Assembly: GCA_021790195.1 (NCBI GenBank)
Contig: JAJYIF010000004.1
Span: forward strand, 62,001 to 126,000
DNA from: Nitrospirota bacterium
GTDB taxonomy: Bacteria > Nitrospirota > Thermodesulfovibrionia > Thermodesulfovibrionales > UBA9159
Length of the DNA: 64,000 nt
Reading direction: 5' to 3'
Shown here piece by piece: positions 2,417-63,802 of this stretch. Below the pieces are notes generated by a model. It was not told where the DNA came from. It was given only the letters and a program-made list of their open reading frames with translations, and ran no database searches. A program made the position numbers and the translations under genes. The first letter of the stretch is position 1; each line of letters starts with the position of its first letter.

Positions 2417-3787
2417 ATGAAAAGCTCGACCTTTTTAGTGGTATTGATGATATTGGCCGGTTTGGTCTTGGTGCCCGCAGTATTATATGCAGAGACTGAC
2501 CAGCAGCAGACGAGCGCGCCTCCCGTATCGCAGCCTTTGGTGCGCGAAGGCACAGTGGCCTTGAAGCTGGCTCTTGCTCTGAACCTTGGCAAGGGAACAA
2601 ATGAGGCCGAAGCGGAAAGTGCACTGAGCGCAGTCGGAATCGCTCCAAAGAACGGGTGGATAGCGGATTATCCTGTGACGCCCGATATAGCGGGAGAACT
2701 TCAGAGCGCGGTGAAAGTGGCTGCGGATTCGAAATACATAAAGATGGGAAAAGATGAGGCGTTGAAGGCCTTTGAGAATGTCATGCTCGCATATGATTTG
2801 CCTGTGAAGCCTTCAGGCAAAGCCGTGGAAGAGGCAAATGCCGGGTCCGGAGCAAGTCCACAGACTTACAACTCTGAGCAACCTTATGGTACCGACGAGT
2901 CTACAATAGTCAACAATTACTATTATGACGAGGGGCCTCCTGTAGTTACCTACTACGCTCCCCCAATCGATTATGCGTATCTCTACACGTGGGTGCCGTA
3001 TCCTTTTTGGTGGTATGATTACTGGTTCCCTGGTTTCTATGTCCTTGGAGATTTTGACATAGATATCGGTCATGGGTATTTTCATCACGACAGAGACTTC
3101 AATCACGATTTCCATCACGATAGGAATTTCGATCATGGTCGGGGAAGAGATCACTTTATCACGAACCATTTCCGCGACCCCAAGACCGGCGCGGTGACAA
3201 GGATCGATCCCGCAACAAGAGCTCACGGCGGGACTTTTCCCGCAAGGGTAAACACTGGCTGGAGCGGCGCTTCAGCACGAAACGGAGCAAGATCGATCTT
3301 CAACCATAGTTTCAATCGTATGAATGTTAATCATGCGGCGTCCGGCTGGAGAGAAAAGGTCGGATCTCCTACCGGTAGCAACTGGAACGTGAACAGAAGT
3401 TCAAACAGAAACTTGAGGAACAGGACACCGGTTTTCCACGGTTCAAACGGAGTCGGCACACATAATACGTTCGGCAATGCAAGACAATATTCGGGAGCCA
3501 GGACCTATGCGCCTTCCGGTGTAAACAGAGTTTATAACACGTATCGCAGCAACACATTCAACGGAGCGGGCGCCACACATGTCTTCCAGCCGAGGACCTT
3601 CGCGCCGAGGACATTTCAGCCCAGGACTTTTGAGCAGAGGACGTTCCAATCAAGGACGTTTCAGCCCCGGACCGGAAGTTCATTCGGCGGCTGGCGAGGA
3701 GGCGCTATAGCACGGTCTTTCGGCGGAGGAGGCGCTCGTTCTTTCGGTGGTTGGCACGGCGGCGGTTCATTCGGCGGAAGGAGATAA
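2417..3787 (+). CDS. secreted His/Tyr/Trp-rich repetitive protein of unknown function
   Basis: 456 residues with a clear signal peptide (about 1-25, ending AVLYAE). Residues ~30-140 look globular and helical. Residues ~165-210 are extremely Tyr/Trp/Pro-rich. About 218-251 is a His/Asp-rich run (HHDRDF, HHDRNF repeats). The last third is Asn/Arg/Gly/Ser-rich, with about five short repeats of the type (P/S)RTFxP at roughly 392-419 and a glycine-rich end. It resembles envelope proteins of low complexity such as those carrying DUF3300, but I do not recognise the family. The His/Asp run could bind metal ions; that is inference. It is transcribed alone, with its own terminator downstream. Confidence 0.75.
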   Translation: MKSSTFLVVLMILAGLVLVPAVLYAETDQQQTSAPPVSQPLVREGTVALKLALALNLGKGTNEAEAESALSAVGIAPKNGWIADYPVTPDIAGELQSAVKVAADSKYIKMGKDEALKAFENVMLAYDLPVKPSGKAVEEANAGSGASPQTYNSEQPYGTDESTIVNNYYYDEGPPVVTYYAPPIDYAYLYTWVPYPFWWYDYWFPGFYVLGDFDIDIGHGYFHHDRDFNHDFHHDRNFDHGRGRDHFITNHFRDPKTGAVTRIDPATRAHGGTFPARVNTGWSGASARNGARSIFNHSFNRMNVNHAASGWREKVGSPTGSNWNVNRSSNRNLRNRTPVFHGSNGVGTHNTFGNARQYSGARTYAPSGVNRVYNTYRSNTFNGAGATHVFQPRTFAPRTFQPRTFEQRTFQSRTFQPRTGSSFGGWRGGAIARSFGGGGARSFGGWHGGGSFGGRR

Positions 3788-3796
3788 GTACAAACT

Positions 3797-3830
3797 AAGG
3801 GAGAGGAAGAGCGCTTCTTCCCCTCCCTTT
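3797..3830 (+). terminator. Rho-independent terminator after the His-rich protein gene
   Basis: Hairpin AAGGGAG / CTCCCTT continued after one mismatch by GGAAGA / TCTTCC around a GCGC-centred loop, followed by TTTC. It starts 9 bp after the stop codon. Confidence 0.7.
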
Positions 3831-3924
3831 CGTGAAAAGCGGTTTTAGATTGTATTGGACATTTTATTCATATGTATTGTTCACGCCCCTTAGTCGCTAT
3901 CCCTGATTTAGAGTATAATTCTAT

Positions 3925-5088
3925 GTGCACTTTCTTTTGTTTTTTTTGCAATGGATTTTCCTTGTCCCGGTTATCGGGGGGTCAGTATTCTCAGTTCTCT
4001 GCGTAGCAGCGTTCTTCCTTTTCAAGGCGCGCTTGTCAGATCCCTCTCGGAAATCTTTCAAGCAGTGGCCGCCTGTTACGGTCCTGAAGCCGGTGTGCGG
4101 GCTTGAAAAGAACCAGAGGGCCAATCTGCGAAGCGCCTGTATGCAGGACTATCCCGACTATCAGGTCTTATTTTCCGCTCAGGACCCAAATGATCCTGTG
4201 ATCCCGCTGCTTGAAGAAATCCGGGAGGAATTCGGGTCCGGGCGGGTCACGATAGTTGTCGAGAGTCTGAATGTCGGGCCTAACGGCAAGATAAACAACC
4301 TCATCGGCGCGTATCCCCATGTGCGGAATGATGTGATTGTGATCAGCGATAGCGATGTATATTTGAGGCCTGATTACTTGAAGACAATCATTGCTCCTCT
4401 GTCTGATCCTGAAGTCGGTTATGTCTGTACTCTTTATAAGACCGTCAGCGCTGACAACTGGTTCGAGAAGATGGAGCTTCTGACTTTTAACGCCGACTTC
4501 ACGCCGAGTTTGGTCTTTGCCCAGGTAACCGGCGCATCGCGGTTTTGTCTTGGCGCATCCCTGGCTTTCAGGCGGTCGTCACTTGAAGAGATTGGGGGAT
4601 TTGAGAGCTTGTCGGACTATTTGGTCGAAGACTATGAGATCGGCCGCCGCATATGGTCGTCGGGTAAGAAACCCGCTCTCGTGCCTTATTTTGTGGAGAT
4701 TACAGTGGACTTCAGCCGCTTTATGCAGTGGTGGAACCATCAGGTTTACTGGGACCAAAATACCAGGGCGGCTCAGCCGGCGGGGTTTTTTGCGAGTGTA
4801 TTGACAAGATCCGTCCCCTTCGCATTTCTATTCGCGCTGTTGCGCCTCTGCGATGTTGTCGGTCTTGAGGTCTTTGTAGTCGCCATTGCCATTCGCATTG
4901 CTGCATCCGGCGCGATCATGTTTTTGGGGATGCGGGATCGTGAGGGTCTGAAAAGCATACCCCTCCTACCTCTGAGAGACATTGCAGCGCTTGTCTCCTG
5001 GTTTCTGTCTTTTACCAAGAGAACCGTTGTATGGCGCGGCGCCGAGTTTATCTTGACAAGAGAAGGACGGCTGATGCCGAAGAAGTGA
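3925..5088 (+). CDS. hpnI: HpnI-like hopanoid glycosyltransferase (GT2/GT21, ceramide glucosyltransferase type)
   Basis: 387 residues: an N-terminal membrane helix (~5-32), a GT-A catalytic domain, and two or three C-terminal hydrophobic segments. Visible catalytic features are DSD at 142-144 (metal-binding DxD), ED at 235-236 and a later QxxxW-like region, in the order known for ceramide glucosyltransferase-like HpnI proteins. HpnI is reported to add N-acetylglucosamine to bacteriohopanetetrol on the way to the cyclitol ether. The nearby hpnJ homologue supports the call. The start is GTG; no Shine-Dalgarno is visible, and a perfect TATAAT lies only 6 bp upstream (3914-3919), so the mRNA may be leaderless. 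No HpnK deacetylase is present in this window. Confidence 0.82.
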   Translation: MHFLLFFLQWIFLVPVIGGSVFSVLCVAAFFLFKARLSDPSRKSFKQWPPVTVLKPVCGLEKNQRANLRSACMQDYPDYQVLFSAQDPNDPVIPLLEEIREEFGSGRVTIVVESLNVGPNGKINNLIGAYPHVRNDVIVISDSDVYLRPDYLKTIIAPLSDPEVGYVCTLYKTVSADNWFEKMELLTFNADFTPSLVFAQVTGASRFCLGASLAFRRSSLEEIGGFESLSDYLVEDYEIGRRIWSSGKKPALVPYFVEITVDFSRFMQWWNHQVYWDQNTRAAQPAGFFASVLTRSVPFAFLFALLRLCDVVGLEVFVVAIAIRIAASGAIMFLGMRDREGLKSIPLLPLRDIAALVSWFLSFTKRTVVWRGAEFILTREGRLMPKK

Positions 5089-5352: not shown

Positions 5353-5721
5353 TCATTGCAAAGATGTCATGGCAACGCCCATGCAGACGAGCAGTATCCC
5401 CACCCAGCGCTGGAAGCTCACCTTTTCACCAAGGACAAACCTCGCGCCAAACGTGCCGGCGACGTATACCAATGAGGTTGCCGGAAAAACAAAGCTAAGG
5501 TCGGCCCAGGAAAGAACGGCCAGGAAACTGAAAAAATACAGCACAGTAAAGAAAAAGCCGGCCAGGAAATTCTTGTTGCTGACCACTTTTCTCGCATAGA
5601 GGAAAAGCTCTCTCGGCTTTATCGTGGAGACCTCTCCGACCTGCTTCATGCCCTTTGTAAGAAGCACGTCGTGGGCGGAGTCCGCCAAAACTATAATGGC
5701 AATGACTATCGCGGTTTTCAT
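5353..5721 (-). CDS. SMR/EamA-like small membrane transporter, subunit 2
   Basis: 122 residues forming four predicted membrane helices, the size and layout of small multidrug resistance (SMR), EmrE or ArnE/ArnF-type proteins. Residues LTKGM near 21-25 and GEKVSFQRWVGILLV near the C-terminus match the half-EamA pattern. Its start overlaps the stop of the upstream related gene by four bases (ATGA), so the two are probably made together and may form a heterodimer, as paired SMR proteins and ArnE/ArnF do. Because it is the last gene of an operon with hpnJ and a sugar epimerase, a role in moving a lipid-linked sugar or hopanoid across the inner membrane is more likely than drug export; that is inference. 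Confidence 0.75.
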   Translation of the reverse strand: MKTAIVIAIIVLADSAHDVLLTKGMKQVGEVSTIKPRELFLYARKVVSNKNFLAGFFFTVLYFFSFLAVLSWADLSFVFPATSLVYVAGTFGARFVLGEKVSFQRWVGILLVCMGVAMTSLQ

Positions 5722-6179
5722 CTTTCAGGGACAGTCTCCACCCGTTGGTCCTGGCAGGGTGGGAGTGCCTTCTTCCTTTCAGATCGCAAGACAAGTATGA
5801 CCCCCGCAGCAATGAGAAATGTTCCTGTCCAGCGCACCGTCGAAACAGACTCCCCCAGGAAATAATCGGCGAAGGCCACGTTTACGAAAACCTCCGCTGA
5901 TATTACCGGCAGCACGAGACTGAGGTCGGTCCAGGAAAGAGCGGTTGCGAACAAGATATAGAAGGCTATTGACAGGGCGACTCCAATCCAGATCATGGGG
6001 TTCCCCGCTGCCTGAAGCGGGATCGCAGTCAGATCAAGGGCTCCCGCATGTTCGAGGGAGGCGACATATTTCATCCCCTTGCTCAGGAACACATTTCCGG
6101 CAGCCTGCGCCAGCACTGCAAGGGCCAGCACGGCGTAGGTCTTCATCCTGCGCGACCTGGGCTCAGACTGATTCGTCAT
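5718..6179 (-). CDS. SMR/EamA-like small membrane transporter, subunit 1
   Basis: 153 residues: a short polar N-terminus, four hydrophobic helices and a charged C-terminal tail of about 25 residues. The segments LSKGMKY and WTDLSLVLPV match the equivalent positions of the next gene, so the two are diverged paralogues. A second possible start (ATG at 6146, MKTYAV) would remove 11 polar residues; neither has a strong ribosome site. It lies 15 bp after hpnJ. The pairing of two unequal SMR subunits resembles flippase pairs acting on undecaprenyl-phosphate sugars. Confidence 0.75.
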   Translation of the reverse strand: MTNQSEPRSRRMKTYAVLALAVLAQAAGNVFLSKGMKYVASLEHAGALDLTAIPLQAAGNPMIWIGVALSIAFYILFATALSWTDLSLVLPVISAEVFVNVAFADYFLGESVSTVRWTGTFLIAAGVILVLRSERKKALPPCQDQRVETVPER

Positions 6180-6194
6180 CGTAAGTCTTGGGAA

Positions 6195-7658
6195 TTATCC
6201 TGCGGATTGATCGGTCAGAAATCTCTTTCTCTTTGAGCGGAGCTGAAAGAATTCCCTAGCTTCTTTATACAATCTCTTCCGGTCCCGAGCATCGAAGAGG
6301 GCCCGGCGGACTATTCTGAATACAATCCTCGGCCTGAAATAGTAACGGGCGTAAAAGTTTTCGACTGCCTCGACTATCTCCTGTCTCGTAAGGCCGGGAT
6401 ACTGTATGTTCGGCAGCTGGTGTCCAAGCTCGTCCGTCATCTCCGCTGTGGTGAGATAATGGTGCTTTTCCAGGTAATCGTAAAACTCGGTCCCCGGATA
6501 TGGATGTGATATGGACACCTGGATTGTCTCGGGATCGAGCTGCATAGCGAAACGCATTGTTCTTTCGATGCTTTCGCGGGTCTCGCCCGGATGCCCGATC
6601 TGAAAATCTCCGTGGACAGTAAGACCAAGACGTTTGCAATTCTTCATGAAAGCGAGGGCCTGCTCGACCGTCGCGCCTTTCTTGATGTTCTTCAGGACGG
6701 TCGGATCGCCCGACTCAAAGCCGACTATCAGGAGCCTGCAGCCCGCTTCTCTCATCGCCTTAAGTGTCTCATAATCCGCGGTGACTCTTGAGTTGCAGGA
6801 CCATGTGAATTTCAGAGGTTTCAGCTTCCCGCAGATTTCGAGGACCCTCGACTTTTGCCAGGTGAACGTATCGTCGTCAAAAAAGATCTCTCTTGCCTCG
6901 GGAAACAGCTCAAGCGCCTTTCTGACTTCAGCGACGGCGTTGTCGCTGCTGCGTGTCCTCCACTGGTGCCCGCTCATGGTCTGCGGCCACAAACAAAAAG
7001 TGCATTGGGCCGGACAGCCCCTCGAAGTATAAAAAGAGACGTAAGGGTGATGGAGATAGGGTATGTTGTAACGCGTGATATCCAGGTCCCGCTTATAAAT
7101 ATCCACCGCAAACGGAAGGGCGTCGAGATCCAGAAGCGCGGGGCGGTCGGGATTGTGTACGATACCTCCATCTTTTCTGAAGCTGATCCCTGCAATTTCC
7201 TCCATATTCCTGCCCTGCGCAAATTCCGTTACCGAATAGTCGAATTCCTTTCTCGCAACGAAGTCGATGGCCTCAGACGCCTTCAGGCTCTGTTCCGGAC
7301 GTATCGTGACGTGAGGACCGACAAAGGCGATCTTTATGTCCGGTTTCGCAGCCTTCATCATTCCGGCGAGACGGATATCGCTCCTGAACCCCGGCGTACT
7401 GGTGAAGATAACCACGAAATCATATTCCTTTGAGATCGCCACTGTGTCTTCCGGGCTTACGCCGTGAGAAGGTGCATCGAGAAGACGGCTTTCAGCTATC
7501 ATGCCTGCAGGGTAGGCCAGCCAGACAGGATACCAGAAAGAGGTTATTTCACGCGTCGCCTGGTAACGTGAACTTGCGCCTCCATCGAAGTTCTCGAAAG
7601 AAGGAGGATTAAGGAGCAGGGTCTTCATTCCGGATATCTTCTTGACCGGGCAGCTCAT
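6195..7658 (-). CDS. hpnJ: HpnJ-like B12-binding radical SAM enzyme of hopanoid biosynthesis
   Basis: 487 residues. The N-terminus (MKTLLLNPPSFENFDGGA, SRYQATREI) and SFWYP segment are characteristic of HpnJ. Residues ~30-150 form a cobalamin-binding-like domain and C215-x3-C219-x2-C222 is the radical SAM [4Fe-4S] site. HpnJ is linked genetically to formation of the bacteriohopanetetrol cyclitol ether, probably by ring contraction of a hopanoid-bound sugar. I placed the start at the ATG that overlaps the epimerase stop codon (ATGA) and has GGGAG upstream; an internal ATG at 7628 also fits the usual N-terminus. It acts with HpnI (encoded nearby on the opposite strand); the usual HpnK partner is not in this window. 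Confidence 0.88.
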   Translation of the reverse strand: MSCPVKKISGMKTLLLNPPSFENFDGGASSRYQATREITSFWYPVWLAYPAGMIAESRLLDAPSHGVSPEDTVAISKEYDFVVIFTSTPGFRSDIRLAGMMKAAKPDIKIAFVGPHVTIRPEQSLKASEAIDFVARKEFDYSVTEFAQGRNMEEIAGISFRKDGGIVHNPDRPALLDLDALPFAVDIYKRDLDITRYNIPYLHHPYVSFYTSRGCPAQCTFCLWPQTMSGHQWRTRSSDNAVAEVRKALELFPEAREIFFDDDTFTWQKSRVLEICGKLKPLKFTWSCNSRVTADYETLKAMREAGCRLLIVGFESGDPTVLKNIKKGATVEQALAFMKNCKRLGLTVHGDFQIGHPGETRESIERTMRFAMQLDPETIQVSISHPYPGTEFYDYLEKHHYLTTAEMTDELGHQLPNIQYPGLTRQEIVEAVENFYARYYFRPRIVFRIVRRALFDARDRKRLYKEAREFFQLRSKRKRFLTDQSAG

Positions 7659-8605
7659 TTTCCACTCCCCACAAAAAACGAAGCGTACCATTCAGCAGTC
7701 TTTTCAAGACCCCGGTGCATGTCCCACTCAGGCCTGAATGACAGATATTTGTTTGCCTTGCTCACGTCCGCGTAATCATAACGGATATCTCCGGGCTGGG
7801 GAGGGCCGAAAACAGGGGGGATTTTCCTGCTCAGAATTCCCTGAAGAAAAGCACATAGCTGGTTTACAGTGGTTTGCAGGCCGGTGCCGATATTCATGAC
7901 ACCGCCTGAAATACCGACGGCGTTACATGCGGCGATGGTGGCGCGGGCGCAGTCCTTTACATATAAGAAATCCCTCGACTGTTCTCCGTCTCCGTAGATT
8001 GTCGGGGCTGTGCCGGAGACCAACGCGGAAACGAATTTAGGAATGACGCCGGCATATTGCGAGGCCGCATCCTGGCGCGGTCCGTATACATTGAAGTACC
8101 TGAGCGACGCTGTTTCGAGACCATAAAGAGACGAGAAGAGGCCGCAATAATGCTCGCCCGCCATCTTGCTGGCCGCATAAGGGGAAGATACGGGCGATAC
8201 CTTTTCTTCAGACCTCGGAAGCACGGGGCTGTCTCCATAAACGGCGGAAGAAGAAGCATACACGAACCTCTTCACCTTTGCGTCCCTCGCAGCGACAAGG
8301 GTGTTCAGTATGCCCGTCACATTGATCTCGTGCGTCTCCAGCGGCTGTTCGACTGAGCGCGGGACCTCGTGGAGGGCAGCCAGGTGAATGGCATATTTCA
8401 CATTCTTCATCGCCTGCCGGCACGAGTCAGGATCTCTTACATCTCCTTCAACTATTTCTAAGGAGTCCGCGAACTGAGAAAGGTTTTCCTTTTTCCCTGT
8501 AGAAAAGTTGTCGAGGATACGCACCTTCTCTCCCTTTTCGATGAGAGATTCGATGATATGCGATCCTATAAAGCCTGCTCCGCCGGTTACTAGATATAGC
8601 GACAT
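7655..8605 (-). CDS. NAD-dependent nucleotide-sugar epimerase/dehydratase (GalE/WbpP-like SDR)
   Basis: 316 residues, extended short-chain dehydrogenase fold. The NAD-binding TGGAGFIG is at 7-14, the active-site serine region SSSAVYG at 118-124, and Y143-x3-K147 is the catalytic pair. The overall pattern fits UDP-glucose/UDP-N-acetylglucosamine 4-epimerases of the WbpP/Gne kind. AAAGGAAAAG precedes the ATG. It heads the operon with hpnJ and two SMR genes and could supply the sugar for the hopanoid head group. The HpnA family (hopanoid-associated sugar epimerase) is an alternative name, not certain from sequence. Confidence 0.85.
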   Translation of the reverse strand: MSLYLVTGGAGFIGSHIIESLIEKGEKVRILDNFSTGKKENLSQFADSLEIVEGDVRDPDSCRQAMKNVKYAIHLAALHEVPRSVEQPLETHEINVTGILNTLVAARDAKVKRFVYASSSAVYGDSPVLPRSEEKVSPVSSPYAASKMAGEHYCGLFSSLYGLETASLRYFNVYGPRQDAASQYAGVIPKFVSALVSGTAPTIYGDGEQSRDFLYVKDCARATIAACNAVGISGGVMNIGTGLQTTVNQLCAFLQGILSRKIPPVFGPPQPGDIRYDYADVSKANKYLSFRPEWDMHRGLEKTAEWYASFFVGSGK

Positions 8606-42409: not shown

Positions 42410-44368
42410 CTAATCGCCGCCGTCATAATGCTTCACATATTTTCTGAGGAGGTTTTTTATCTTTTCCTCCCCGGAAAGCCTGCCGGTCCTCAGGTGTGTC
42501 TCGAATTCCAGGAGCATGGTCTCTATTTCTGCAGCTGAGTATTTCTCGGTCTCCTTCCCTATAAACACCTTGTCGTGCTTTGTGGCGACGGTCCCTTCCT
42601 CGGCGGTGAGTATCTCTTCGAACAACTTTTCGCCCGGTCTGACCCCGACGAACTCTATATCGATGTCCCTGTAAGGTTCCAGACCGTGAAGTCTTATCAG
42701 GTCTTCAGCCATGCTCAATATCTTTATCGGTTCGCCCATATCGAGGATAAGCACCTCCGCTCCTTTTCCGATGACCGACGCCTGAAGCACCAAGGAGACG
42801 GCCTCGGGTATCGTCATGAAATACCTCACCATGTCCTTGTGAGTTACCGTGAGCGGCCCCCCGGCCTTCAACTGTTTCAGGAAAAGCGGCAGGACGCTTC
42901 CCCTGCTGCCGAGGACATTGCCGAACCTTACCGAAATAAACTCCGTGGAATTGATCGTATTGAGGGCGCAGCAGATATTCTCGGCAATCCTCTTTGTAGC
43001 TCCCATGACGCTTGTCGGCCTCACTGCCTTGTCGGTCGAGATCATGATGAACTTTTTGGCGTGGTGTTCCGCCGCCGCCTTTGCCACCGTATATGTCCCG
43101 AAGATGTTGACCTTGACCGCCTCCTTGGGGTTCGATTCCATCATCGGGACGTGCTTGTATGCCGCGCTGTGAAATACAATGTCCGGAGAAAAACCTGCGA
43201 AGACCTCGTCCACCCTGTCCTTGTCCCTTATGTCGCCGGCAAGGAAGAATAACTTGCCCTTCAAATAAGGGAAGGCCCTGTTCAATCTGAGCTCCATATT
43301 GTGCAGCCATGTTTCGTCGTTGTCAAACAGAATGACCTTATCGGGAGAGAACCCGCAAGCCTGCTTTGTTATCTCGCTCCCGATAGACCCTCCCGCGCCA
43401 GTGATGAGGACGCAGTTGCCCGAGATAAGTCCATCTATCTCTCCGTGGTCGATCTCGACGGATTGTCTCCCTATCAGGTCCTCCACTCTTATATCTTCAA
43501 GGCTCTTCAGATTGATATGCGGCTGCTGGAAGTCATAGATGTGCGGTATGATCTTCACCGACCTGATATGAGACTCCCTTGCGGTGTTGTATATATTCCT
43601 GAGCACCTTGTAATTCAGGGAAGGTATGGCGATTATGACTGCCTCAACCCTGTACTTCAAGATAACGGTCCTTAATTGGCCGCACGGACCGAATACCTTA
43701 AGTCCGTGGATATAGCTCCCGTGTTTATTATTGTCGTCGTCAAGGAAGCCGATGGGATAGAATTCCGAGAAATTCTTTTTTGCCATGTCCCTGACGATCA
43801 TCTCCCCGGTGTGTCCCGACCCTACGATAACCGTCCTCTTACCGTGTTTCCGCAATGCCCGCTCGCGGAAGACCTCCAGGAAGAGCCTCTTGGATATCCT
43901 CAGTCCCGAAAGCAAAGTAAGAGAGACAATGGCGTCGATTAGAAAGATGCTCCTCGGGAAGCCGGGAATATAAAAGGACAAGAAAAGCCTCAGCCGGTCG
44001 TGCAGCGGTATGAGTACCACGGCCATGAGGATGGATTCCGCCACGATCAGGGCGGTAACAATGTTCCACAAATCGTTCAGACCCACGTACCTCCAGGTGA
44101 TTTTATAGAGCCTGAACAATATGAACACAGTCAGCTTCACCGCAATAAAGAGGACTACGACATTCACGAACATCTGCCGGAATTCGTGCGTTACGGCAAA
44201 ATCGAAGCGGAGGAGAAATGCGAGGTAAAGGGAAAGGGCGGTCATGACGATATCACCGAGCAGGAAGAACATAAAGCGTTTGAAGTAAGTGGGATAGACC
44301 AGTCTGGAGAACAAGTCGCGAAGGGCCGATCCGAGCCCGCTGCCAGTTCTGCCCTGTGCAGTCCTCAC
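42410..44368 (-). CDS. membrane-bound NDP-sugar dehydratase/epimerase (CapD/FlaA1-like)
   Basis: 652 residues: four N-terminal membrane helices (~18-130), a CoA-binding-like Rossmann domain and a C-terminal SDR domain with VLITGAGGSIGSE near 323-335 and SAAYKHVPMME. Proteins of this build make UDP-4-keto-6-deoxy-GlcNAc or related precursors (WbpM/PglF/CapD). The GTG start overlaps the stop of the sugar transferase (GTGA). Last gene of the polysaccharide cluster; supplies the first sugar. Confidence 0.9.
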   Translation of the reverse strand: MRTAQGRTGSGLGSALRDLFSRLVYPTYFKRFMFFLLGDIVMTALSLYLAFLLRFDFAVTHEFRQMFVNVVVLFIAVKLTVFILFRLYKITWRYVGLNDLWNIVTALIVAESILMAVVLIPLHDRLRLFLSFYIPGFPRSIFLIDAIVSLTLLSGLRISKRLFLEVFRERALRKHGKRTVIVGSGHTGEMIVRDMAKKNFSEFYPIGFLDDDNNKHGSYIHGLKVFGPCGQLRTVILKYRVEAVIIAIPSLNYKVLRNIYNTARESHIRSVKIIPHIYDFQQPHINLKSLEDIRVEDLIGRQSVEIDHGEIDGLISGNCVLITGAGGSIGSEITKQACGFSPDKVILFDNDETWLHNMELRLNRAFPYLKGKLFFLAGDIRDKDRVDEVFAGFSPDIVFHSAAYKHVPMMESNPKEAVKVNIFGTYTVAKAAAEHHAKKFIMISTDKAVRPTSVMGATKRIAENICCALNTINSTEFISVRFGNVLGSRGSVLPLFLKQLKAGGPLTVTHKDMVRYFMTIPEAVSLVLQASVIGKGAEVLILDMGEPIKILSMAEDLIRLHGLEPYRDIDIEFVGVRPGEKLFEEILTAEEGTVATKHDKVFIGKETEKYSAAEIETMLLEFETHLRTGRLSGEEKIKNLLRKYVKHYDGGD

Positions 44369-56224: not shown

Positions 56225-57646
56225 TTAAAACTGAAAATAGATGAAATTACCGGTAGCCGCGGCGCCAAAGATGAAGACGCCAAAAAGCATATACATGTAA
56301 CTCATTGCCTGAAGGCCGCAGTTAGATTCGAGCAGGATCTCAAGGTTGTTCTTCTTATACTGAATCAATTGCATCAGCATCAGGAACCATGTAAAGAAAG
56401 CTATGATCAAAGTATTCTGGAAGACCGAATAAGTCAGGGAAAAACCCAGCGCAAGGCTTCTTGTCATGGCAAAGATCTGATTGAGCGAATCCGCGCGGAA
56501 CAGGAGCCAGCCAAGGCATGTTACGTGGAAAAATACAATTACTTTGAGAATGTTGAGAGCTGCGCCGAAAGCGCGGGGCAGCTTAAATTGGGGATGGCGG
56601 ACATTCAGATCGATAAAGCGATGAATTGAAAGAATAACTCCCTGGTAGACGCCCCACAGTACAAAATGCCAGGCCGCGCCGTGCCATAATCCGCAAAGTG
56701 CCATAGTAATCAAGAGGTTCAGGTAGGTTCTGAATCGTCCCCTTCTGTTTCCTCCCAGGGGTATGTATACATAATCCTTCAGCCAAGTGGAAAGGGTGAT
56801 ATGCCACCTCTGCCAGAATTCCCTCGGGTTTCTGGCAAAGTATGGAAGGTTGAAATTCATTGAGAGCTCGAATCCCATAAGTCGCGCCAAGCCTCTTGCG
56901 ATATCAGTATATCCTGAGAAATCCGCATAGATTTGAAAGGCAAATGCATATAGGCCGAAAAGCACTTGCAGGCCTGGTTCGTTCTTTCCGGCAAAGACGG
57001 CATCGGCGTATCTCATCATGTTGTCGGCTATGAAAACTTTCTTGAAGAGGCCCCAGAGGACAAGATAGCCGCCTGAAAGGAGCCTGTCGGCGCGGACGAT
57101 CCGTTTCTCCTCAATCTGGGGGAGAAAAGTCCTCGCCCTTTCTATCGGTCCGGCTACGAGCTTCGGGAAGAAAGCGACAAAGAGGGCATAATTGAGGATA
57201 TTTCTTGTCGGCTGAAGTTTATTGCGGTAGATGTCGATAGTGTAACTCATCGTCTGAAACGTGTAAAACGAGATCCCTACCGGCAGAACGATATTCAGAT
57301 GCATAAGGGAAGGGTCATATCCGGATGCCCTTATCAGCTTCTCGATTCCGTCCACAAAAAAGCTGTAATATTTGAAGAAGCCAAGAATGGCAAGATTGCT
57401 GCAGACGCTTATCGCCAGAAAGACCTTGCGCTTCTTCAGGTCCGCTGCTTCATTGATTCTTATTCCGCAATAATAATCAATTATCGTTGAGGCGAGGATC
57501 AAACCGAGGAATTTGTAGTTCCAGCTTCCGTAAAAAAAGTAGCTGGCGATCAGAAGAAGGATGTTCTGTCCGCGTCTGTCCAAAAGGAGGTAGAGTCCGT
57601 AGACAGCCGCAAAGAAAATCCAGAACTCCCAGGAATTGAAAAGCAT
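56225..57646 (-). CDS. MBOAT family O-acyltransferase (AlgI/DltB-like)
   Basis: 473 residues, ten or more membrane helices. The RWHITLSTWLKDYVYIPLGGNRRG motif and the catalytic histidine in GLWHGAAWHFVLWG are both intact. AlgI-like proteins carry acyl (usually acetyl) groups through the inner membrane for modification of extracellular polysaccharide. The SGNH gene just upstream is the usual partner. Ends 10 bp before the next gene's end. Confidence 0.92.
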   Translation of the reverse strand: MLFNSWEFWIFFAAVYGLYLLLDRRGQNILLLIASYFFYGSWNYKFLGLILASTIIDYYCGIRINEAADLKKRKVFLAISVCSNLAILGFFKYYSFFVDGIEKLIRASGYDPSLMHLNIVLPVGISFYTFQTMSYTIDIYRNKLQPTRNILNYALFVAFFPKLVAGPIERARTFLPQIEEKRIVRADRLLSGGYLVLWGLFKKVFIADNMMRYADAVFAGKNEPGLQVLFGLYAFAFQIYADFSGYTDIARGLARLMGFELSMNFNLPYFARNPREFWQRWHITLSTWLKDYVYIPLGGNRRGRFRTYLNLLITMALCGLWHGAAWHFVLWGVYQGVILSIHRFIDLNVRHPQFKLPRAFGAALNILKVIVFFHVTCLGWLLFRADSLNQIFAMTRSLALGFSLTYSVFQNTLIIAFFTWFLMLMQLIQYKKNNLEILLESNCGLQAMSYMYMLFGVFIFGAAATGNFIYFQF

Positions 57647-57655
57647 CCCGTGTCT

Positions 57656-58747
57656 CTAAGATTTCCCGGCGTTAATCAGCAGCCCTGAACCGATCAGGTA
57701 GTCATGAAGCTTCCGAGCAATCTCGCTGGAGCCTTTCGGAGTGGCATGGACATGGTCGGAAAGAACAGTGAGGTCGGGAGTGATCAGGGCGTTAAGATCG
57801 ACAAAGGGCACATCCTCTTCTTCCGATATCCGCTCCAGGGACACTCTTACCTGTCTGACAGCTTTGACAAGCTTGTCTTCCTTCATAATGAAATATATCC
57901 TGGATTTCTCCTGGTCCTGCAGCGGGCGGCTCAGAAGGTTCAACTGGTTTATTAAACAGACCCTGATATGGTTCGCTTTCGCTATAGCCACAATACTCCG
58001 TATGTTCCTCTCGAAGACGCGCCTGCCGTATTCCAAATCACTATCCGTGTCTGGCGGCTGGGACGCCGGCGCGGGGGGAGAGATCCCGACAAACTCCCGG
58101 GGTATCTTGTTCCTCAAGGCTCTGCCGAGAATATACAAATAACTGTAATGGAGCCACCGGTCAATGTTAGACGGGGAATCCTTCCGTTCGGCAAGGCCGG
58201 TGTCGGCGAACCCTCTGGAGGGCGATATAAGGGGCCAGTATTTGATATCATTCCATCCGAGGTAACATAATACAAGGTCCGGGTCAAAATCGAGAAGACG
58301 GGTCGCAAAACTTGTCAGGGCCTGGAAAGAAGAAAAACCGTCTACAGAAGTATTCAGCACCTCGACCTTGTTTGACTTGTCTGCATCAAACAAGATCTGA
58401 AGCCTGTCCGGCCACGTCTCTCCGTCATTAAGTCCATGCCCGTATGACTCTGACCCTCCGAGGATGATGATTCTGTAAGTCCCGTCAGGCTTTTTTGCCG
58501 TGAACTCCCTGCCGCGATAGCCGAGGGAGTTGATCTTTGTTTTTAAAGTAATGTGATTAATTTTGGAATTGGGAGCGAGAGAGTATCCCGTGAAAATATC
58601 CGGCCTATAAAGAAAATATCCGGGGTCGAAGGCGCCTATATCACGGTTGGTCAGAAAGAAAAAGATACGCAGTCCCGCTTCTGCCATGAGCAGAATGAGG
58701 AGACACGAGACTACTATTCTTGCGACTTCTTTCCTGTAATCTTTCAC
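57656..58747 (-). CDS. SGNH/GDSL-like acyl hydrolase or acyltransferase (AlgJ/AlgX-type partner)
   Basis: 363 residues: an N-terminal membrane anchor (~10-30) and a periplasmic SGNH domain. Block I is GGSESYGHG, block III LGWNDIKYW, block V DHVHATPKG, giving the Ser-Gly-Asn-His set. It overlaps the GT4 gene upstream by 4 bp (ATGA) and precedes the MBOAT gene, so the two likely O-acylate the polysaccharide. Confidence 0.85.
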   Translation of the reverse strand: MKDYRKEVARIVVSCLLILLMAEAGLRIFFFLTNRDIGAFDPGYFLYRPDIFTGYSLAPNSKINHITLKTKINSLGYRGREFTAKKPDGTYRIIILGGSESYGHGLNDGETWPDRLQILFDADKSNKVEVLNTSVDGFSSFQALTSFATRLLDFDPDLVLCYLGWNDIKYWPLISPSRGFADTGLAERKDSPSNIDRWLHYSYLYILGRALRNKIPREFVGISPPAPASQPPDTDSDLEYGRRVFERNIRSIVAIAKANHIRVCLINQLNLLSRPLQDQEKSRIYFIMKEDKLVKAVRQVRVSLERISEEEDVPFVDLNALITPDLTVLSDHVHATPKGSSEIARKLHDYLIGSGLLINAGKS

Positions 58748-59955
58748 GAAGCGATAATATGTTTGTTGAGCGGTTCGCCGATCAGCCTGCGATAAAAAGC
58801 CAGGGTTCTGAGGGCAACAACGTCAGGACCAAACCTTGAAAGGGCCTCTTCTTTGCCTGCTTTACCCATACGGGACGACAATTGTTCATCGCGTAGTAGC
58901 CTCGTAATGGCAGTTGCCAGGGCCACGTCGTCTCCGGGCGGAACAAGAAAGCCGGTCTCATGATCACGAACTATTTCTTCAGTAGCAGTCCCTGAAGACG
59001 CAACGACCGGTTTTTCGAAGAGCATGGCTTCAACCGCGGATATGCAGAAGGTCTCGTAGTATGAAGGCGCGGCATACACAGCACATGCTTTGTAGTATTC
59101 GCCTATTCTGTCTCTTTCTATGTAACCGGTTAGTGTGACCTTGTCGGCAATGCGGTTATCTTTAAGAAAGCGCTGTAATACGCTTTCAGGCACGGAGATA
59201 TGCGAGGACCCCGCCATGACAAGTCGTGCTTCTGGAATAATTGCCACGATATGCATGAATGCCTTCAGGAGTGTCCATATACCCTTAACGTCTGCAATGC
59301 GTCCGGCATAAAAAATCATTTTGGAGGCCTGGAGTCGGGAGGTCCGGATCTCATCTGCATTAAAGGCGCGTACAGGATTAGGTATGACCTCCAGAAGATT
59401 TTTTCTGTGTGCTTTTCTATCAACCATGTCTTTTTGAAAATTGCTCGGCGCCGAAATCCCCCGTGCTTTACAAAGACAGAACCTTTGGAGGACCCTGTCC
59501 AGTTTCGCTCCTATCGAAGCCCTTCCCATGGTCGATTTTTCAAAGGAATATGTGCTTCCGTGAAGCCGTATCACCAAAGGGATTTTTCTTACGCATAGCG
59601 CAACAAGAAGATTCCCCGTCTCCGAGCCCTCGATAATATCCGGACGGTGTTCTCTTCCCAGCGCTCTGAGCTTGCGGTAAAAGCCCAATGACCATTCTAT
59701 CTCACGCACGGGCAGGGCGACCATTTGTCCGATTAACGGCAGCCTGGACAGATACCAGTGAATGTTGCCCCCTCTGAATTCATGGAGATAAGCCCCATCT
59801 TCTAATTTCGTCGTCCTTGATGTTTTGCTTTTAACGATGATGTGGATTTCGTGGCCTAATCCGGCAAGTCCGGGGACCAAGGCATCCAGATAAGATGCAA
59901 TCCCGCCGCCTTGGCCGAGAGAATGATGTTCGAGCGATAGAAAACAGATATTCAA
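58744..59955 (-). CDS. GT4 family glycosyltransferase (paralogue of the GT4-PIG-L N-terminus)
   Basis: 403 residues. ICFLSLEHHSLGQGGGIASY at the start, FYAGRIADVKGIWTLLKAF and YYETFCISAVEAMLFEKPVVAS with the E-x7-E pair. It closely matches the first 380 residues of the gene at 60653 (shared HW-x2-SR-x-PL, SLPVREIE, IRLHG), so the two are tandem duplicates; this one lacks the deacetylase domain. Confidence 0.88.
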   Translation of the reverse strand: MNICFLSLEHHSLGQGGGIASYLDALVPGLAGLGHEIHIIVKSKTSRTTKLEDGAYLHEFRGGNIHWYLSRLPLIGQMVALPVREIEWSLGFYRKLRALGREHRPDIIEGSETGNLLVALCVRKIPLVIRLHGSTYSFEKSTMGRASIGAKLDRVLQRFCLCKARGISAPSNFQKDMVDRKAHRKNLLEVIPNPVRAFNADEIRTSRLQASKMIFYAGRIADVKGIWTLLKAFMHIVAIIPEARLVMAGSSHISVPESVLQRFLKDNRIADKVTLTGYIERDRIGEYYKACAVYAAPSYYETFCISAVEAMLFEKPVVASSGTATEEIVRDHETGFLVPPGDDVALATAITRLLRDEQLSSRMGKAGKEEALSRFGPDVVALRTLAFYRRLIGEPLNKHIIAS

Positions 59956-60656
59956 GAAAGGTCCCGTTTAATCGCTCGAAATGTTAGCTGCCCGGCGAAA
60001 CGATATGGCATGACTTCCCGGAGCCACTTCCTTCTGAAATTGTGACCGATACCGAGGGAATGTTTAAGTGCGGACAAGACATCGAAGACCGAACTTAACC
60101 CCCAGACAGTTATTCTCGCCGACCAGAGCGCCCCCTTCGTCAGCCACTTATTGCCAATGAACTGATGGGCCCACGTCCAGACGATCAACGGGAAACAGCT
60201 TATGCCGGGAGAGATTACGATATCGCCGAACCCGCTGCGGCGAAAGATTTCGAGTAGGCCGTTCTTACTGAAGTAGAAATAGGTCTCGCCCTGCATCGGT
60301 TCGAGATAAGAGACACTACCGATAATAACGCCGTTTGGCTTGAGGACTCTTCTGATCTCGCTCAGGACAAGATAAGGATCGTGAAAGTATTCCATCACCT
60401 GCCAGATGTTGACGAGGTCAAAGGTCCGGTCTGGAAAGGGCAGATTATGTGCGTCGACCTGCAGGTCTACAGCGGCATTATCATGATAATCGCAGCATAC
60501 ACAACAATATCCCGCCTGTTCGATGGGCGATCTATGTCTGCCCGTTCCCGCTCCCAAATCGAGGGCAAGCCCGTTTCCTTTAGGCAGGACGGATTCAATT
60601 GAGGACCAATCCGGTTGCAGGGTCTCCCAGAGGCTCTGATTCGTTCTTCTCTTCAA
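59952..60656 (-). CDS. class I SAM-dependent methyltransferase
   Basis: 234 residues. LDLGAGTGRHRSPIEQAG is the SAM loop; AHNLPFPDRTFDLVNIWQVMEYFHD follows in UbiE-like style. It overlaps both neighbouring genes by 4 bp, so is part of a coupled set with the two GT4 genes. Confidence 0.83.
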   Translation of the reverse strand: MKRRTNQSLWETLQPDWSSIESVLPKGNGLALDLGAGTGRHRSPIEQAGYCCVCCDYHDNAAVDLQVDAHNLPFPDRTFDLVNIWQVMEYFHDPYLVLSEIRRVLKPNGVIIGSVSYLEPMQGETYFYFSKNGLLEIFRRSGFGDIVISPGISCFPLIVWTWAHQFIGNKWLTKGALWSARITVWGLSSVFDVLSALKHSLGIGHNFRRKWLREVMPYRFAGQLTFRAIKRDLS

Positions 60657-62635
60657 CTGGACCTAATGCTGCCAGGTTCTTTGCTGGGCGGGGAAAGCCA
60701 GATGCGCTCTGCATGAGTATCGCGTCCCACAGTGAGTGCATACTTCCTGAAATTATTGCTTGCCTTTTTATAGTTGCCGCCTATTCCGTACAACTGGGTA
60801 TTGTAATTCTTGATCATTTTCAGTTTGAAGTCCATTTCTATAGAAATGACTGACGGTGATAACGGGGTTTCGTGTCTTTCTACGATTGTACGGATCTCTT
60901 CAGGATACCACATGCAATAAGGAAAATCTTCGAAAAAAGATACCTTAAATCCCTCAGCAGAAAGACTCAAGCCCACCTTGTAAGCTATCTGATGGTCCAC
61001 GTGGTTGCCGATACCCAATGGTACAAGTATATGCGTTTTTGCGGGATCATGACTTTGCACTGTCTCTTTCACTTTCTCATAGATATCACCGCACAATATC
61101 AGGTCTTCTGGATGAAGAACACCCCTTATCTCTTCGTAATTATTATAAAGAGAGACGCCGTTCTTAGTCTTCCGGTAGATGCAATCCAGGAAATCGAGAT
61201 GTATCTCGCGGGCTCCTATCATTTCTAGAGCAGTTCTATCTTCCTTCATTCTCAGGCTGACGGGGTCTTCTACCTTCCACTTATTGTGGATTTCACGAGC
61301 AAAAGGGCTGAGCCCGGAACTCTCCGGGAGCCCTCCAAACAGCGTGATGACCAGATTCTTCTTGCCTCGCTTTCTGTATTTGTGCATGATGCCTCCGCAG
61401 GAAAAGACGGCGTCATCGAAATGGGGAGAAAGGAAGATGTTACATATCGGGTCTGCGCTGATATTCGAGACTGACAGGCTATTGTAGATGCCCAGGAGTT
61501 TCTCCGTTACAACGGTAACACTGAATTCAGTGAAGTCGTCTGCGCTTGCCGGCCGACCTTCGCGCCGTATGATGCGCACGCACGCGTCGGCAAGGGCCTC
61601 GACGTCTCCCGGCTCCACAAGAAGAGCGCTGTGGTGCCCTTTCAGAAGCTCCCTGACGGCGGCAATATCCGAGGCCACGACGGGTGCGCCATGCATTAGG
61701 GCTTCCAGCAAAACATATCCAAAGGTCTCATAAAAGGAGGGCAGGACGACCGCTGCCGCACACTCATAAAGCGCCAACAGTTTGGAATATTCCACATGCC
61801 CCAAGAAGATCACTGAGTCTTCTATACCGAGCCTGCTGAGCATCTTTCCGATCTCATTCCACGGAAGCGAGGGGTGTCTGCTGCCTGCAAAGACAAAACG
61901 GGCATTCGGTATCTGTCTTAACACTATCGGTATCGCCTTCAGGAGCGGGATTACCCCTTTCACATTCTGAAGGCGACCCACATATAGAAAGAGCGGGTGA
62001 TCCTTGTCACAGACGCCTGCCCGCATAGCAAGTATCTCCTGCGGAACGGGATTTGGAACGACGCTCGGAGATATCTCCCTTCTCTTCAGGTCAGCGACTA
62101 TTTCTGATGCATGGGCATGACTCGGTGAAGTCAGAAGGTCGCAGCGGCGAAGGGCCCTGCGTTGCAGATATCTGCTGAAGCGTACGCCGACAGGGATATG
62201 GCCCGGAGGGGAATATTTTTTGAAGGTGAACATTTCACCGTGGAGGCGTATCACGCTCTTTATGCCGGGTCTCAGCTTCGAGAAATAGTACGATCCGGTT
62301 TCCGTGCCTTCCACGATATCAACCGGCTCGATGGCGTCGATTTCCCTCACTGCGCGAAGCACGGTCATCGAGTACTCGATTTCCCGAACAGGCAGCGACA
62401 GCGCTCTTCCCAACAGGGGGACTCTCGATACATGCCAGTGCAGATTGCCTGGTAGCTTCCAAAGTATTCTGACACCCTCATCGAAAGTGATGCGCTCCTC
62501 TTCCCTGCCCAGGGCTATTACCGATACTCGATGACCTCGCCGAACCAATTCCCGGCCCACCGCCCTAACATAAGTTCCCACCCCGCCGCCTCCCTCGGCA
62601 CTCGGATAATCTAGAGATGCAAAACAGATATGCAC
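60653..62635 (-). CDS. bifunctional GT4 glycosyltransferase and PIG-L type deacetylase
   Basis: 660 residues. Residues 1-385 are a GT4 enzyme (GGGGVGTYVRAV near 15-26, GRLQNVKGVIPLLKAI, E303-x7-E311). Residues ~398-650 are a PIG-L/LmbE zinc deacetylase: S403-P-H405-F-D407-D408 and H545-V-D-H548 supply the metal site. LmbE-type domains remove N-acetyl groups from GlcNAc derivatives (as in MshB, PIG-L, BshB). One protein could thus add a GlcNAc and de-N-acetylate it; this is inference from the fusion. Tandem partner of the GT4 at 58744. Confidence 0.88.
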   Translation of the reverse strand: MHICFASLDYPSAEGGGGVGTYVRAVGRELVRRGHRVSVIALGREEERITFDEGVRILWKLPGNLHWHVSRVPLLGRALSLPVREIEYSMTVLRAVREIDAIEPVDIVEGTETGSYYFSKLRPGIKSVIRLHGEMFTFKKYSPPGHIPVGVRFSRYLQRRALRRCDLLTSPSHAHASEIVADLKRREISPSVVPNPVPQEILAMRAGVCDKDHPLFLYVGRLQNVKGVIPLLKAIPIVLRQIPNARFVFAGSRHPSLPWNEIGKMLSRLGIEDSVIFLGHVEYSKLLALYECAAAVVLPSFYETFGYVLLEALMHGAPVVASDIAAVRELLKGHHSALLVEPGDVEALADACVRIIRREGRPASADDFTEFSVTVVTEKLLGIYNSLSVSNISADPICNIFLSPHFDDAVFSCGGIMHKYRKRGKKNLVITLFGGLPESSGLSPFAREIHNKWKVEDPVSLRMKEDRTALEMIGAREIHLDFLDCIYRKTKNGVSLYNNYEEIRGVLHPEDLILCGDIYEKVKETVQSHDPAKTHILVPLGIGNHVDHQIAYKVGLSLSAEGFKVSFFEDFPYCMWYPEEIRTIVERHETPLSPSVISIEMDFKLKMIKNYNTQLYGIGGNYKKASNNFRKYALTVGRDTHAERIWLSPPSKEPGSIRSS

Positions 62636-62638
62636 GTG

Positions 62639-63802
62639 CTAAGGACGTCTTCTCTTATCGATATATCGAGTAAAATAATATTTATCGAGGAAACGATAAA
62701 CAGCTGACCCTCTTAGGTTCTTCGGCTCAGCGCAGGAACGGACACAGGCCTCGCAGAAAGAGCTGTCGTCGAGATCGGCCAGCATGTGTCGCCTGAGCGC
62801 ATCATATTTCTCAGAATACCATATATCATGTAATGAGGCTTTCTTTACGTTCCCCATATTGAATCCGCAGTGGCAGCACGGCGTTACATTGCCATCGACT
62901 GCAATTCTGCAAAGGTTCCACCCGACCATGCAACGCCTCTTATACGGAAGGTCCGAAAGATTCCCGTTGGTTTTTTCTTCGTCATCCTTACTCTCGGCGC
63001 CAGGACGGAATGACCGAAGGAAGGCCTCCAGATTATTGACGATGCCGGCTCGCTCCATGATCGCTTCAGCTTTCCCGGCGCACTCGCGAATGATTCTTTT
63101 GTCGTTATCTTCGAGAGAGAGTTGCTTGGTTTCCGTGAATACGGACACTTCTCGGAAGATGACCTTGTCAACGTTCAATACCGTAGCCAATTCAGCCATA
63201 TTCACAATATCATCAGCATTGAGTTTCATCATGATATTAACCAGATTGATCTTAAGCTTGGTTCTTCCATGCCGCTTCTCAATGCGCACTTCATGCAGCG
63301 CCTCCACGATCCTCGCAAAATTCTCTAAAGAGCGGCCATCCGGGGAAGGGTGGGTTTTCACATAAGCACCTTCGCTGCCAGCCCATAAGCTGACCTGCAG
63401 TTCATTCAACCCCGAGGCGCACAACCTTTGAACGTCGGAACCTGTTCTTATGCGGGTTCCGTTAGTTACTACGGTGGAATAAAGTGCGGAACGCCCAATG
63501 CATTCCAGGATTTCATAAATATCCGGATGAAGAAAAGGTTCGCCCAACCCGGCCAGCTCTACACGTGTGACACCCATCTTCCCCATATCTCTCGAAAGGG
63601 ACTGAAATGTGCCCAAATCCATGCTCAATGAATCGTGCCTGCGCTTCTCTTTAAGTAGCGGGCTGTTAGACCAACAGGCGATGCAACTCAGATTACACAT
63701 ATTCTCAACGTCGATTTGCACAAGGAAGGGCGCAGAGAAAGCCCGTGAGCCACTCATGGCGCCTGCGTAGCTCAACGCACGTTGAAATCTCGTTTTTTGC
63801 AT
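62639..63802 (-). CDS. radical SAM/SPASM domain protein
   Basis: 387 residues. C36-x3-C40-x2-C43 is the radical SAM cluster site (MCNLSCIACWSN); the C-terminal SPASM-like region has CMVGWNLCRIAVDGNVTPCCHCGFN and CEACVRSC, for auxiliary FeS clusters. Such proteins occur in surface-glycan clusters, where the substrate is unknown; elsewhere they modify peptides. AAAGGCGG precedes the ATG. First intact gene of the polysaccharide operon in this window. Confidence 0.85.
   Translation of the reverse strand: MQKTRFQRALSYAGAMSGSRAFSAPFLVQIDVENMCNLSCIACWSNSPLLKEKRRHDSLSMDLGTFQSLSRDMGKMGVTRVELAGLGEPFLHPDIYEILECIGRSALYSTVVTNGTRIRTGSDVQRLCASGLNELQVSLWAGSEGAYVKTHPSPDGRSLENFARIVEALHEVRIEKRHGRTKLKINLVNIMMKLNADDIVNMAELATVLNVDKVIFREVSVFTETKQLSLEDNDKRIIRECAGKAEAIMERAGIVNNLEAFLRSFRPGAESKDDEEKTNGNLSDLPYKRRCMVGWNLCRIAVDGNVTPCCHCGFNMGNVKKASLHDIWYSEKYDALRRHMLADLDDSSFCEACVRSCAEPKNLRGSAVYRFLDKYYFTRYIDKRRRP

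Follow-up and report, generated by a model that had tools for sequence, protein, structure and literature searches.

In the mycothiol, bacillithiol and GPI pathways, a GT4 glycosyltransferase is paired with a PIG-L deacetylase that takes the product of the former as its substrate (MshA–MshB, BshA–BshB and PIG-A–PIG-L, respectively); MshA and BshA use UDP-GlcNAc, and their products are deacetylated by PIG-L enzymes. In the case of MshA and MshB, the two steps belong to two proteins. Other PIG-L enzymes, such as Dbv21 and teicoplanin Orf2, are stand-alone proteins that act on glycopeptide antibiotics. In the lipopolysaccharide core clusters of Pseudomonas a PIG-L gene adjoins a glycosyltransferase gene (PMC8005017), and it was speculated that the GT4 enzyme WaaG adds GalNAc, which is then deacetylated by the PIG-L enzyme DnpA (PMC10579960). 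The transferase that supplies the substrate of a bacterial PIG-L enzyme is usually guessed, and the WaaG–DnpA link is itself an open proposal (PMC10579960). A literature search, with thin coverage of subscription literature, returned no description of a glycosyltransferase fused to a PIG-L domain.

In the window (the whole stretch of 64,000 nucleotides analysed here) both enzyme types are encoded by one gene. Positions 60653–62635 of the minus strand form a single uninterrupted frame of 660 codons with a GTG start codon, and its product is a genuine GT4–PIG-L fusion in one polypeptide, with the following parts:

60653..62635, minus strand: fusion gene, GT4 glycosyltransferase plus PIG-L deacetylase, 660 aa (single open frame, Pfam, AlphaFold2)
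61466..62635, minus strand: GT4 domain with a C-terminal helix, residues 1–390, confident core 1–358 (PF13439, PF13692 and PF00534; Foldseek matches to MshA, 3c48/3c4q, and BshA)
61703..61729, minus strand: GT4 E-x7-E motif, E303 to E311 (alignment with the stand-alone paralogue)
61457..61561, minus strand: weakly modelled linker, residues 359–393 (pLDDT below 50; no in-frame ATG, GTG or TTG)
60656..61465, minus strand: PIG-L (CE14-type) deacetylase domain, residues 391–660, about 395–655 (PF02585, match to Dbv21, pLDDT, Foldseek)
61412..61429, minus strand: SPHFDD, residues 403–408 (the H and both D invariant in relatives)
60992..61003, minus strand: HVDH, residues 545–548 (H545, D547 and H548 invariant)

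The first-pass annotation had placed both active sites in one polypeptide at these coordinates, and both statements hold. The GTG start is credible, because the N-terminus of the fusion, MHICFASLDYPSAEGGGG, aligns with the start of its stand-alone paralogue, MNICFLSLEHHSLGQGGG. The Pfam domains Glyco_transf_4 (residues 17–198), Glyco_trans_1_4 (214–357) and PIG-L (401–556) all score above their curated cut-offs: the GT4 part, of the GT-B type, reaches 114.7 bits with PF13692, 108.7 with PF00534 and 59 with PF13439, and the C-terminal domain reaches 48.5 bits with PF02585 against a cut-off of 28.2. The latter also matches the solved deacetylase Dbv21 (3dfi) over residues 398–631 (E 7e-20), which speaks against a chance frame. 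In the alignment of this domain with 17–18 relatives S403, P404, H405, D407, D408, H545, D547 and H548 are invariant, and the fusion thus carries the zinc-site pattern H-x-D-D ... H-x-D-H of PIG-L/LmbE deacetylases; by comparison with MshB, zinc is predicted to be bound by H405, D408 and H548, with D407 acting as the general base. As for the GT4 domain, E303 and E311, whose role in the fusion we presume to be the one established for this family, are kept in the stand-alone paralogue as well, together with the phosphate-binding R221 and K226. The G+C content is 0.551 for the GT4 part and 0.456 for the deacetylase part, a drop that would fit two domains of separate origin.

Structure prediction, suggested by the first-pass annotation as a check of domain packing, recovered both folds and left the packing unfixed. 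The AlphaFold2 model of the full-length protein, built from a 27-row alignment, has a mean pLDDT of 82.5 and a pTM of 0.55; the GT4 part is moderately good, the deacetylase reaches about 95 over residues 401–650, and residues 359–393 stay below 50. The best Foldseek matches of the N-terminal domain in the PDB are MshA (3c48/3c4q), at the top, and BshA; those of the C-terminal domain are the teicoplanin/A40926 deacetylases 2x9l/3dff/3dfi (Orf2/Dbv21), with TMt of 0.81–0.84. Orf2 and Dbv21 are therefore the closest solved relatives of this domain in both sequence and fold and share with it the SPHxDDA and HxDH motifs, the difference being that here the domain is attached to a GT4. The likeness to the beginning of mycothiol or GPI synthesis, noted earlier, thus extends from the enzyme pairing to the fold of the N-terminal domain, although here a GT4 and a PIG-L domain stand in one chain and in a polysaccharide locus. 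No signal peptide precedes the first GT4 strand, which would fit a cytoplasmic location.

The order GT4-then-PIG-L in a single chain appears to be rare, both parts being known enzyme types. In a GTDB-wide scan, whose pattern covered relatives with SPHLDD, none of the best 80 deacetylase-relative loci retained contained a GT4 fusion; neither did 17 plasmid records with close relatives contain a second fusion of this order. No other relative of the deacetylase was found in 396 genomes of the same phylum at 1e-8. Relatives are present in 80 of 201 Chloroflexota genomes and in 2 of 199, 6 of 299 and 5 of 141 genomes of three further phyla, none of them fused to a GT4. When all PIG-L domains were searched for in 178 genomes of the same phylum, 51 had such a domain and none had a second GT4-then-PIG-L order. 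Among viral contigs the fusion protein was unmatched, ten contigs carrying stand-alone deacetylase relatives only, and phage records gave no match. Six apparent long-frame PIG-L matches in other phyla (G537, G1078, G1144, G440, G467 and G591) were rejected as GT4 fusions, being long high-GC open stretches or neighbouring genes. Within these samples, the proposed survey of fusions found the same architecture in one genome only, and reverse-order fusions in two genomes of the same phylum. What is new would be an architecture for a known two-step logic.

In the reverse-order fusions (L194:1124–3247 in genome G105, 707 aa; L195:2894–4870 in genome G190, 658 aa) the PIG-L domain comes first and a Glycos_transf_1-type domain last, and the gene directly follows wzm/wzt. 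They resemble the fusion studied here in having a deacetylase and a glycosyltransferase in one chain near wzm/wzt, and differ from it in the domain order. Their scores lie close to the cut-offs: in G105 the PIG-L domain passes (29.8) and the glycosyltransferase is slightly under, whereas in G190 the PIG-L domain falls below (27.2 vs 28.2) and the glycosyltransferase passes (27.2 vs 26.4). Pairwise BLASTP of the G190 protein against the fusion at 60653–62635 gave no significant similarity, and the reverse fusions thus apparently arose independently. Unfused adjacent GT4 and PIG-L genes recur in several phyla; in Methylobacterium, Roseomonas, Hymenobacter, Geodermatophilus and Arthrobacter they follow the same order, GT4 and then a PIG-L with SPHxDD, but their GT4s lie on other branches of the tree. 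Pairs of this kind lying in the same frame one stop codon apart were considered as readthrough candidates and dropped, their excess being probably a selection effect, since the loci seem to be ranked by joined same-frame matches.

The fusion gene lies in a tightly packed operon, each gene's stop codon overlapping or almost touching the start codon of the next. The order on the minus strand is radical SAM/SPASM protein, fusion, methyltransferase, stand-alone GT4, SGNH esterase and MBOAT; these neighbours and one further gene of the locus are:

62639..63802, minus strand: radical SAM/SPASM protein, 3 bases upstream of the fusion (Pfam Radical_SAM and SPASM)
59952..60656, minus strand: SAM methyltransferase between the two GT4 genes, with a 4-base overlap on each side (Pfam Methyltransf_11)
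58744..59955, minus strand: stand-alone GT4 paralogue, 403 aa (34% identity over 397 aa; sister in the tree)
57656..58747, minus strand: SGNH/GDSL esterase-like protein (Pfam Lipase_GDSL_2)
56225..57646, minus strand: MBOAT O-acyltransferase (Pfam MBOAT; 171 bits with the DltB model, below its cut-off)
42410..44368, minus strand: WbpM/PglF/CapD-like nucleotide-sugar 4,6-dehydratase (PF02719, E 1e-112; 196 bits with the PseB model, below its cut-off)

The locus, on the minus strand, was followed past the edge of the window for context. Its exporter is a Wzm/Wzt-type ABC transporter (ABC2_membrane; ABC_tran with a C-terminal extension), and it further contains a Wzy_C-type protein, glycosyltransferases of the GT2, GT9 and GT4 families, FkbM and other methyltransferases, a hexapeptide acyltransferase and an asparagine-synthase-like amidotransferase. 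Wzm, Wzt and glycosyltransferases are thus gathered in one cluster, as in Wzm/Wzt O-antigen-type loci. The locus could make amino sugars, the 4,6-dehydratase being a possible source of N-acetylamino-sugar donors. Three radical SAM proteins occur in or beside it (62639–63802; L043:727–2232 and 3540–4763), two of them with SPASM and one with a B12-binding domain.

The stand-alone GT4 had been described as a closely similar twin of the fusion, lying two genes away, and the pair had suggested a duplication followed by gain or loss of the deacetylase. It is indeed there, separated from the fusion by one gene, the methyltransferase; "closely similar", at 34% identity, is an overstatement. A third GT4, more distantly related (29%), is found immediately upstream of the window. 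A tree was built from 51 GT4 sequences of the source genome, its own phylum and other groups, with limited sampling beyond the phylum; in it the fusion and the stand-alone GT4 group as sisters (ultrafast bootstrap 100, SH-aLRT 96). Both belong to a wider clade (100/96) together with the third local GT4, a protein of the same class and another from an Acidobacteria bin. The duplication is thereby supported, but the path between the sisters amounts to 2.9 changes per site, and therefore it is either old or older than the arrival of the genes in the source genome, the pair having in the latter case arrived together. Among the members of this clade the deacetylase is present in the fusion only; its gain is thus more parsimonious than its loss.

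Based on these data we predict, with a probability of about 0.6, that the fusion is bifunctional, first attaching an N-acetylhexosamine to a lipid-linked glycan and then N-deacetylating the attached sugar; we infer here the N-acetylhexosamine donor, the lipid-linked acceptor, the order of the steps and the activity of both domains. The protein would act in the cytoplasm as part of O-antigen-type surface-polysaccharide synthesis: its GT4 domain would use a nucleotide sugar to transfer an N-acetylated amino sugar to the lipid-linked glycan, and the attached PIG-L domain would strip off the acetyl group by zinc-dependent hydrolysis, whereupon the freed amine could provide an extra positive charge or be re-acylated by another enzyme. 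This prediction is supported by the presence of both domains above Pfam cut-offs in a single frame, by the invariant zinc motif and the kinship with Dbv21, a lipoglycopeptide N-deacetylase, and by the fold of the N-terminal domain, shared with users of UDP-GlcNAc. It draws further on the content of the locus (Wzm/Wzt, Wzy_C, glycosyltransferases, methyltransferases, MBOAT with SGNH, and the 4,6-dehydratase), on the reverse fusions beside wzm/wzt and the recurrence of unfused GT4/PIG-L neighbours, and on the Pseudomonas LPS core clusters, with their adjacent PIG-L and glycosyltransferase genes (PMC8005017) and the speculated WaaG–DnpA route (PMC10579960).

The fusion might be an artefact of sequencing or assembly that merged two separate genes, and indeed the architecture is seen in one copy in a single genome, while separate GT4 and PIG-L neighbours, often one stop codon apart, occur elsewhere. 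However, the frame is continuous across the junction, and no ATG, GTG or TTG occurs in frame between codons 353 and 417, a span that begins within the GT4 domain and ends past SPHFDD. Stand-alone relatives of the deacetylase start just a few residues ahead of SPH. Had a stop codon been lost at the junction, or an indel arisen there, the gene downstream would thus have had no start codon, which makes a joining error, one of the two pitfalls named at the outset, very improbable. The other named pitfall, loss of the metal ligands of the deacetylase, was looked for, and all the ligands proved to be kept. This bears on another alternative, a non-catalytic passenger domain, e.g., a decayed or purely regulatory deacetylase: the long branch of the C-terminal domain (1.35) and its lower G+C content would agree with it, but with every invariant motif residue present and the domain modelled at about pLDDT 95 we regard it as improbable, if somewhat less so than a joining error.

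The main rival to the bifunctional enzyme is that both domains are active on different substrates and were fused for the sake of co-expression or co-localisation at the membrane. The relatives of the C-terminal domain are mostly stand-alone and occur in varied, unrelated contexts (sugar-transport operons in rhizobia, Streptomyces and other loci), so that the substrate of the PIG-L domain need not be the product of the GT4; besides, the linker is flexible, the orientation of the domains is poorly fixed in the model, and several other glycosyltransferase genes of the locus could supply the substrate. Against this stand the recurrent product–substrate pairing of such enzymes in the three pathways named at the beginning, as well as the gene neighbours and the independent fusion, which favour coupled steps, and we would give this rival something like one chance in five. 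A small GlcN metabolite as the product, i.e., a mycothiol- or bacillithiol-like thiol or a pseudodisaccharide instead of a polysaccharide, is suggested by the best folds of the N-terminal domain, MshA and BshA, and by the same pairing of enzymes. Yet the fusion scores just 76.1 of the 462.5 bits required by the NCBIfam model of MshA (TIGR03449) and 67.3 of the 273.7 bits required by that of BshA (TIGR03999), and BshC (PF10079) had no match in the source genome, which is 96% complete, while control genomes were positive. On these tests, and given the O-antigen-type context, membership in the mycothiol or bacillithiol pathway was rejected; since, in addition, a further GT4/PIG-L neighbour pair lies on a different contig of the source genome, a small product in general seems quite unlikely.

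Returning to the bifunctional enzyme, we would suggest, tentatively and with more doubt than belief, that transfer is followed by unmasking within the same protein: the GT4 product would be passed directly to the fused PIG-L domain, fixing which one residue of the glycan is deacetylated, and the paralogue would make the acetylated counterpart. If so, then, taking the reverse fusions into account, a glycosyltransferase and a PIG-L domain would have been fused on two or more occasions within the O-antigen loci of a single phylum. In a natural fusion a given transferase is tied to a given deacetylase, and their link can be tested directly with a single protein; two unrelated fusions of opposite order near genes of glycan export or assembly strengthen the case for amino-sugar editing by PIG-L enzymes in O-antigen-type synthesis.

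Several other PIG-L arrangements were observed in passing. The pair on another contig of the source genome (L197:3457–6483; G000:C21, about 118456–121482) consists of a GT4 (427 aa) and, 22 bases further, a PIG-L protein (231 aa); it is preceded by a 342-aa protein, and two genomes of the same family encode related GT4s. In two other genomes of the phylum, proteins of about 600 aa (L190:1003–2799 in G108 and L193:2032–3876 in G071) combine TPR repeats, apparent membrane segments and a C-terminal PIG-L domain. In a protein of 671 aa (L191:1907–3922, G008) the PIG-L domain is again C-terminal, and about 440 N-terminal residues have no Pfam match. In G1144 (L187:2–2331) a GT2-like gene of the cellulose-synthase type runs straight into a stand-alone SPHxDD PIG-L gene. 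One more conserved pair, found in Methylobacterium, Roseomonas, Hymenobacter and Geodermatophilus (L045, L046, L058, L059, L062, L082 and L109, around 5400–7700), joins a GT4 with the tail CRFRxEPHLL to a PIG-L gene and seems to represent a two-step amino-sugar pathway as yet undescribed; the Hymenobacter pair of L047 adjoins genes of inositol-3-phosphate synthase, YcaO, an isomerase and an oxidoreductase.
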